NCBI GenBank assembly: GCA_018066225.1
Contig: JAGHRU010000124.1
Location: forward strand, 1-38,775
DNA length: 38,775 nucleotides
Direction of reading: 5' to 3'
From: Candidatus Equimonas enterica
GTDB lineage: Bacteria > Bacteroidota > Bacteroidia > Bacteroidales > Bacteroidaceae
This document shows positions 248 through 33,927 of the stretch, piece by piece (position 1 is the stretch's first letter; every line of letters begins with the position of its first letter). A program made the translations under genes and the position numbers. Under the pieces are notes generated by a model, which did not search any database, was not told the origin of the DNA, and saw only the letters and a program-made list of their open reading frames with translations.

Positions 248-355
248 GGCGAAAAGGGCAAGAAGAAAATACGATACGGGCAGGCCGACGCATTTTACTG
301 CCCAGTAAAATCAATTTTAGAGGGCAGTAAAATAAATTTTAGTGGGCACTAAAAT
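248..355. repeat. 22-bp phased intergenic array, locus A (5 units)
   Basis: GGGC/GCCC cores start at 256, 278, 300, 322, 344 (exactly 22 bp apart). Unit 3 attttact-GCCC-agtaaaat and unit 5 attttagt-GGGC-actaaaat have perfectly complementary 8-bp arms. Confidence 0.85.
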
Positions 356-408
356 GAAAATGTAAAGGCGGGAAAAGAAAAAGACGCGCGCAAACAAAGT
401 GGCGTGCG

Positions 409-1092
409 TCAGTCGAAGAAAGTGCGGGGAGCGTCGTCGAGCAAACGGAACGTGCGGCGATGCAGCGGCGTGAGGCCATGCTCACGCAGACCTGCGCGGT
501 GCTCCTCGGTGGGATAGCCGGCGTTGCGCTCCCAGCCATAATGGGGGTAGCGGCTGTGCTGCTCGTGCATGAAGTCGTCGCGATAGGTCTTGGCCAAGAT
601 AGAGGCAGCGGCGATGCTGAGATATTTGCCGTCGCCCTTGACGACGGTAGCGTGCGGCACAGGGCTATCGCCTACCCGCGGCTGAAGAGTGGCATGGGGC
701 ATCCAGTAGGCCGACAAGTCGGCGGCGTGGCCAGCCTCGCACGGAAAATAGGGGCGAAACTTGTTGCCATCGACGATGATGAAGGCGGGCTGCGGCTGCA
801 ACTGCGCCAAGGCACGGTGCATGGCCAGCAGAGAGGCGTTGAGGATGTTGATGCGGTCTATCTCCTCTGCCGACACCACGCCGAGGGCCCAAAGGGCGTC
901 GCGCTCTATCTCCTCGCGCAGCGCATAACGCTGACGCGCCGAGAGTTGCTTGGAGTCGTTGAGGGCGGCGTTGCGATAGTCGGGCGGCAAGATGACGGCA
1001 GCGGCATAGACAGGGCCTGCAAGGCAGCCACGGCCAGCCTCGTCACAGCCCGCCTCGACGAGCCCATCAGCATTGAAGATACTACGAAGCAT
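409..1092 (-). CDS. rnhB: Ribonuclease HII
   Basis: Translation contains GLVEAGCDEAGRGCLAGPVYAAAVILP and later KGDGKYLSIAAASILAKTYRD, typical of RNase HII. Start taken at MLRSIFNADG (ATG at 1090-1092), directly after the sufS stop; the longer ORF to 1185 overlaps sufS. Confidence 0.93.
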   Translation of the reverse strand: MLRSIFNADGLVEAGCDEAGRGCLAGPVYAAAVILPPDYRNAALNDSKQLSARQRYALREEIERDALWALGVVSAEEIDRINILNASLLAMHRALAQLQPQPAFIIVDGNKFRPYFPCEAGHAADLSAYWMPHATLQPRVGDSPVPHATVVKGDGKYLSIAAASILAKTYRDDFMHEQHSRYPHYGWERNAGYPTEEHRAGLREHGLTPLHRRTFRLLDDAPRTFFD

Positions 1093-7423: not shown

Positions 7424-7554
7424 CACGACGAGGGCATATCGGACGAAGGACAAGGGCAGAAAAGCGACACGCTCTGCCCAGACCGTAGGACGCACAAGGG
7501 CAGACAAGCAAGGGTGACAACCCCACGCGCGATATACGACGAGGGCAGAGGCGA
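7424..7554 (+). repeat. 22-bp phased intergenic array, locus D1 (4 exact steps plus degenerate units)
   Basis: Cores GGGC 7432, GGGC 7454, GCCC 7476, GGGC 7498 (22-bp steps), a degenerate ACCC at 7520, then GGGC 7543. Confidence 0.75.
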
Positions 7555-7837: not shown

Positions 7838-7879
7838 ACCAACCTGCGCAGACGCGAAAAACTATCTGCGCAGATGGTG
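7838..7879 (+). repeat. 22-bp phased intergenic array, locus D2 (2 units)
   Basis: GCGC cores at 7846 and 7868; unit aactatct-GCGC-agatggtg closely matches locus H. Confidence 0.7.
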
Positions 7880-22294: not shown

Positions 22295-22358
22295 CACGAC
22301 AAGGGCAGACCGTGCAAACCATCTGCGCAGACCGTGCGAACTATCTGCGCAGATAGTT
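22295..22358. repeat. 22-bp phased intergenic array, locus H (3 units)
   Basis: Cores GGGC 22303, GCGC 22325, GCGC 22347. Unit 3 is a perfect 20-bp palindrome AACTATCT-GCGC-AGATAGTT. Confidence 0.85.
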
Positions 22359-33819: not shown

Positions 33820-33927
33820 TTCCTCCTGCCCCGGCCTCCTGCCCCGTCTGCCCGCATCGTGCTTACGGCGTGGGCAGAGACGCGCACCGACAAGGGCAGA
33901 TAGCGCGCACGGTCTGCCCGCATCGTG
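33820..33927 (-). repeat. 22-bp phased intergenic array, locus M (5 units)
   Basis: Cores GCCC 33828, GCCC 33850, GGGC 33872, GGGC 33894, GCCC 33916 at exact 22-bp steps; GCCCGCATCGTG recurs at 33850 and 33916. Confidence 0.82.

Follow-up and report, generated by a model that had tools for sequence, protein, structure and literature searches.

The intergenic regions of Candidatus Equimonas enterica carry short arrays in which a GSSC core recurs at steps of exactly 22 bp, close to the 3' ends of genes, with two families of flanking arms, here termed A and B, set in one register. These arrays are real and numerous, and they are probably so far undescribed; a search of open-access papers (subscription papers and most preprints being outside its scope) returned no description of them. 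The reading that we favour, with roughly even confidence, is that they are dispersed intergenic arrays similar to BIMEs (see below), each of them a row of dyad-symmetric sites for a putative dimeric DNA-binding protein.

The window, i.e. the whole stretch of 38,775 nucleotides that was analyzed, is the start of contig C8 in a fragmented assembly of 1.85 Mb that is 86% complete. In the first of its arrays, locus A, the GSSC cores start at 256, 278, 300, 322 and 344, exactly as an earlier sequence-only reading of this DNA had claimed. A relaxed search for chains of three or more GSSC cores at period 22 recovered four arrays in the window (starting at 256, 7432, 22303 and 33828 with five, four, three and five cores; Table 1), against at most one chain at each other period from 15 to 33. 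This regularity is far above chance, as 300 dinucleotide shuffles of the window gave a mean of 0.03 period-22 chains and a chain of four in none of them. The three A-type units of locus A are separated by the spacers CA and AA, and their arms differ from those at the cores starting at 256 and 278; matches to ATTTTANNGSSCNNTAAAAT with up to two mismatches number three in the window versus an expectation of 0. The description of these units as palindromic holds in part: units 3 and 5 each have complementary arms, but unit 4 does not (GA..AG). The surroundings had been described as AT-rich, but the genome is GC-rich (57% GC in the window) and the AT-richness belongs to the units themselves. Rfam models gave no matches to the window at their gathering cut-offs. 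The first 250 nucleotides of the window constitute an upstream region common to at least nine other contig ends (L002-L010), where it adjoins a gene family with products starting like MLKTYVSPRARFIALS; depending on the copy of this region, the same place is taken up by an array of family A or of family B, or lacks a clear array.

Table 1. Array features and neighboring elements in the window
Feature	Position	Strand	Remarks
Locus A array	248..355	.	five GSSC cores, 22-bp steps; outer cores mixed B-like, plus three palindromic A-type units
Core 1, GGGC	256..259	.	
Core 2, GGGC, then B-like half-site AGGCCG	278..281	.	in register with the A block
A-unit ATTTTACT-GCCC-AGTAAAAT	292..311	.	
A-unit ATTTTAGA-GGGC-AGTAAAAT	314..333	.	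arms without full complementarity
A-unit ATTTTAGT-GGGC-ACTAAAAT	336..355	.	
rnhB intrinsic terminator, GACGCACGCCACTTTGTTTGCGCGCGTC then T-rich tail	373..410	-	between rnhB and the locus A array
rnhB (ribonuclease HII)	409..1092	-	PF01351, E=8e-39; 3' end faces the locus A array
Second array	7432..7501	.	four cores, B-like
Two-core B site, TGCGCA-N16-TGCGCA	7845..7872	.	
Third array	22303..22350	.	three cores, family B
Fourth array	33828..33919	.	five cores, B-like

Across the whole genome TGSSCA occurs three times in succession at period 22 in 100 instances, as against 0 for a backward-pattern control. In 517 kb of this genome, comprised of stretches that were picked around matches and in which array density is accordingly biased, there are 60 chains of four or more GSSC cores at period 22 and a single one at all other periods from 16 to 29 taken together. 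Array size peaks at four, with 39 of these 60 chains having exactly four cores. Given that the 517 kb contain 50 of the 100 perfect TGSSCA triples, we estimate about 100 arrays genome-wide, i.e. a number on the order of a hundred. As the arrays were detected via their cores, the conservation of the core is partly a selection effect. The same earlier reading had held that absence of the arrays from orthologous or other intergenic loci would count against it: the array is indeed absent from the rnhB locus of congeners (0 of 29 loci), but other intergenic loci with arrays are numerous in the same genome.

All 60 chains of four or more cores lie outside genes, and 55 of 56 arrays were placed as intergenic by a purpose-written gene finder based on codon usage. 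In most cases a 3' gene end lies less than about 100 bp from the array, and convergent gene gaps are somewhat enriched among the array locations. Of the 54 3' ends that face an array, 13 (24%), that of rnhB at locus A included, have an intrinsic terminator in between, versus 38 of 336 control 3' ends (11%) with a terminator within about 75 nt; hence, strict placement of arrays after terminators is not a rule. The adjoining genes are ordinary and diverse, without a common function: the 91 array-neighbor genes of this genome matched 195 Pfam families, none of them found in more than three members. An all-against-all comparison of neighboring ORFs across genomes recovered mostly spurious ORFs overlying the arrays, and in low-copy genomes the neighbors are likewise ordinary genes.

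The two arm families share the one 22-bp lattice. Family A, to which the units at locus A belong, has the form ATTTTANT-GSSC-ANTAAAAT, in which the arms ATTTTA/TAAAAT flank NT-GSSC-AN, whereas family B reads GSSC-AGAYNGT-NNNN-ACNRTCT-GSSC, often with a central A- or T-tract and with GCCC, GGGC or GCGC as its core (GGCC is absent from the arrays analyzed). Blocks of A-units contain 2 to 5 cores and have lengths of 42, 64, 86 or 108, and in several copies their outer arms TTTCATTTTAGT and ACTAAAATGAAA are inverted repeats of each other. An additional GSSC is present at exactly ±22 outside the A-blocks in 33 of 44 flanks (left 16/22, right 17/22), although in 4 of the 22 blocks, which contain just two A-cores, such a flanking core might have contributed to the detection; at ±21 or ±23 there is none. 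The half-sites flanking the A-blocks are B-like (p=1.4e-5), which together with the exact position of these cores indicates that the lattice runs on across the change of arms. The arrays also show a polarity, with GGGC accompanying purine-type segments and GCCC pyrimidine-type segments, and the symmetry of the units is therefore imperfect. Units inside a single array diverge strongly from each other while retaining the core lattice, and the B arrays are mostly diverged from one another with the lattice kept.

An array is a lattice with one GSSC core (usually TGSSCA) per 22 bp, each core bearing two mirrored short arms, such that a unit of 20-22 bp resembles the site of a homodimeric DNA-binding protein. 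In the favored reading, adjacent sites of the lattice would be occupied by dimers of a single protein, or of a related pair of proteins serving A and B, with contacts between neighboring dimers setting a fixed pitch that could be retained despite a change of arms. The arrays would multiply in the genome as multi-unit blocks in the manner of BIMEs, and might be tolerated or used at gene ends. The binding protein itself, its dimeric state, its cooperativity and any role in chromosome organization or in the insulation of neighboring genes are inferences. The idea that a 22-bp pitch puts all sites on one face of the DNA is good only as an approximation, as at 10.5 bp per turn the step exceeds two turns by about 1 bp (a rotation of about 34 degrees from one site to the next), and the congeners G007 and G028 have a pitch of 23 when the gaps are left free. 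If a protein polymer does read the lattice, it would represent a new bacterial system for organizing or insulating DNA, or a new mobile one, with recognition arms that change between related species on an almost fixed spacing.

A possible, if rather improbable, alternative is that the arrays are selfish miniature mobile elements of the MITE or REPIN-like kind, without a host function, with the lattice furnishing binding sites or ends for a putative transposase that scatters the copies. This is suggested by A-blocks with a shared, ordered series of units at about nine loci whose flanks differ, by pitch-23 arrays in the congener G007 that are nearly identical at eight or more loci, again with different flanks, by the 10-bp direct repeat AGAGCATCGT that bounds one A-block at both edges, and by the lineage-specific presence of the arrays. 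The ordered A-blocks and the G007 arrays also fit a mobile element whose lattice serves only its own transposition. Against this, a target-site duplication of constant length is not general at the A-blocks, with one clear case (L079) and a direct repeat of 7 or more in 5 of 22 flank pairs versus 1.9 expected; a search for Y1/RAYT transposases (PF01797) that was positive in E. coli and other controls gave no matches in this 86%-complete genome; and the mutual divergence of most B arrays with an intact lattice is also at odds with it. Were the arrays nevertheless a mobile element, they would represent a new type of high-copy element that lacks the REP transposase known so far.

Further observations relate to the edges and neighbors of individual arrays. 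In one case (L066, contig C87 of this genome, 13222-13337) the A-block lies exactly within a 14-bp perfect inverted repeat, GGGCATGTCGTGTG/CACACGACATGCCC. Some of the G007 arrays follow HU-HIG genes or apparent internally deleted remnants of them, and others lie elsewhere; in two of these remnants (L297, L298) the first ~26 and the last few codons appear to be joined, and an array follows. The HU-HIG proteins were considered as the binder and set aside, the family being found in 10 of 10 genomes tested, array-rich or not. In another G007 array (L304, G007:C36:40680-40808) the arms are as in the other arrays of that genome and the cores are now TGCCTA/TAGGCA.

The sequence-only reading had left open two ideas, namely a symmetric protein-binding array or a run of selected hairpins, and it had pointed to a compensatory arm change. 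That the arrays act as hairpins of RNA or single-stranded DNA under selection for pairing, e.g. as 3'-UTR stabilizers or terminators, now appears unlikely. The arrays do fold better than dinucleotide shuffles (z of -4.2 for A and -5.3 for B, versus -1.6 for other intergenic regions), but such folding follows from their symmetric consensus. More specifically, the arm position 7 of family A, which is the presumed compensatory site, is paired in 18 of 84 units versus 27.3±4.2 in shuffled controls, and pairing across the spacer is seen in 1 of 45 versus 14.3 expected. The two variable arm positions of family B likewise show no pairing above shuffled levels on either hairpin axis. Covariation at arm positions 4 and 5 of family A (the ATTACA units) derives mainly from one ancestral unit in an ordered block. 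When arms are exchanged between units, B shows no change in predicted energy (z=0.16) and A becomes slightly more stable, and arm swapping revealed no sign of selection for pairing in the verrucomicrobial UBA3750 and UBA4286, Prevotellaceae bin.50, Paraprevotella and Gordonia. On the basis of pairing at or below chance and of these arm swaps, compensatory hairpins were rejected. A hairpin function would agree with the position at gene 3' ends, with the arrays of Epilithonimonas mollis (L125, L130), which are flanked by an A-run on one side and a T-run on the other and resemble an expanded bidirectional terminator, and with the excess of GCCC-majority B arrays on the sense strand in tandem genes (15 to 4, p=0.019, one of several tests), but at the 13 of 54 3' ends noted above, locus A included, an intrinsic terminator already stands between gene and array. 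The covariation and arm-swap tests instead imply that the dyad-symmetric half-sites vary independently, which fits a dimeric DNA-binding protein; thus, of the two original ideas, rows of protein-binding sites are the better fit. Plain minisatellites, in which slippage multiplies 22-bp units that have no binding partner, are very improbable: homogeneous tandem repeats do occur among the cross-genome matches, as do long near-uniform arrays in the congener G028, but strong divergence of units on a retained lattice that spans two unrelated arm families, the mixing of GGGC, GCCC and GCGC cores within arrays in several phyla and the size peak at four cores all speak against them.

Several known systems resemble these arrays in part. 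Iterons of plasmid replication origins are several tandem sites of ~22 bp that are occupied in a row by a single protein; the present arrays differ in occurring at about a hundred loci on chromosomal contigs, in having dyad units and in that no initiator gene was seen nearby. The end arrays of Mu/Tn7-type transposases are likewise rows of ~22-bp sites for one protein, but those sites are non-palindromic and known only from element ends. Among known systems the arrays work most like BIMEs, with which they share short dyad-symmetric intergenic repeats in high copy that are clustered, genome-specific in sequence and located near gene ends. REP/BIME elements are associated with RAYT transposases (PMC2817692) and include GTAG- and CGTC-tagged REPs (PMC3733652). 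Neither tag is present in the A and B consensus as listed, though CGTC-like letters occur inside some B units. Membership in the REP/RAYT system fails in that no Y1 transposase was found in this 86%-complete genome and stem pairing is not maintained, and the strict 22-bp lattice with its GSSC core is a further difference. The BrickBuilt MITE of Porphyromonas gingivalis, with a 23-nt unit AGAYCATARTATCCTCTCRTRTG and the terminal inverted repeat CCGAAAGGTCTC, which resembles those of ISPg1/ISPg9 (PMC4596501), is also a dispersed intergenic element containing a minisatellite of nearly equal pitch, apparently from the same bacterial order. However, its unit has neither the TGSSCA core nor a dyad, while the arrays described here have 22-nt units of another consensus and show no terminal repeats of the BrickBuilt type.

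With respect to their distribution, the arrays are lineage-specific. Among 60 relatives, period-22 TGSSCA triples with other arms were found in six congeners and in one genome of another family; 300 other Bacteroidota genomes gave isolated single matches only, and the family A arms were found nowhere else in the GTDB collection. A scan of that collection for four successive TGSSCA at 22 recovered at least 115 stretches, and those listed include some trivial homogeneous tandem repeats and many diverged dyad arrays with genome-specific arms. Perfect triples (backward control in parentheses) number 255 (0) in UBA3750, 182 (1) in Gordonia araii, 152 (0) in Paraprevotella BRZ_PQ_bin90, 111 (0) in Prevotellaceae bin.50, 86 (0) in Porphyromonas canoris, 68 (0) in UBA4286 and 30 (0) in Mediterranea, with UBA3750 and UBA4286 being Verrucomicrobia with high-copy arrays. 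With any gap from 4 to 34 allowed, all TGCGCA triples among the matches listed for Paraprevotella and bin.50 had a pitch of 22. Since both pitch and core were preset in the cross-phylum scan, a common origin of the arrays across phyla is suggested rather than demonstrated, and since the arms differ between genomes a single conserved protein should not be assumed. In Gordonia the two half-sites of the unit also differ from each other.

We would only tentatively, and with less confidence than in the favored reading for this genome, go on to propose an undescribed, horizontally scattered class of chromosomal lattices with a TGSSCA core, a pitch of 22 or 23 bp and genome-specific arms, which would reach high copy numbers in certain Bacteroidota, Verrucomicrobiota and Actinomycetota and might be bound by a putative widespread protein family whose specificity for the arms shifts rapidly while its polymer geometry is conserved. 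As the arrays are numerous and detectable by pattern, their distribution can be mapped directly and the protein can be sought by pull-down. Certain viral contigs (L201, L204, L205, L214) contain 22-bp TGCGCA arrays with extra cores near half the pitch, which are possibly unrelated. In Prevotellaceae RUG11071 and a similar record (L116, L166) successive blocks have different arm types at a constant 22-bp pitch, with L116 passing from CGCGCG cores to TGCGCA.
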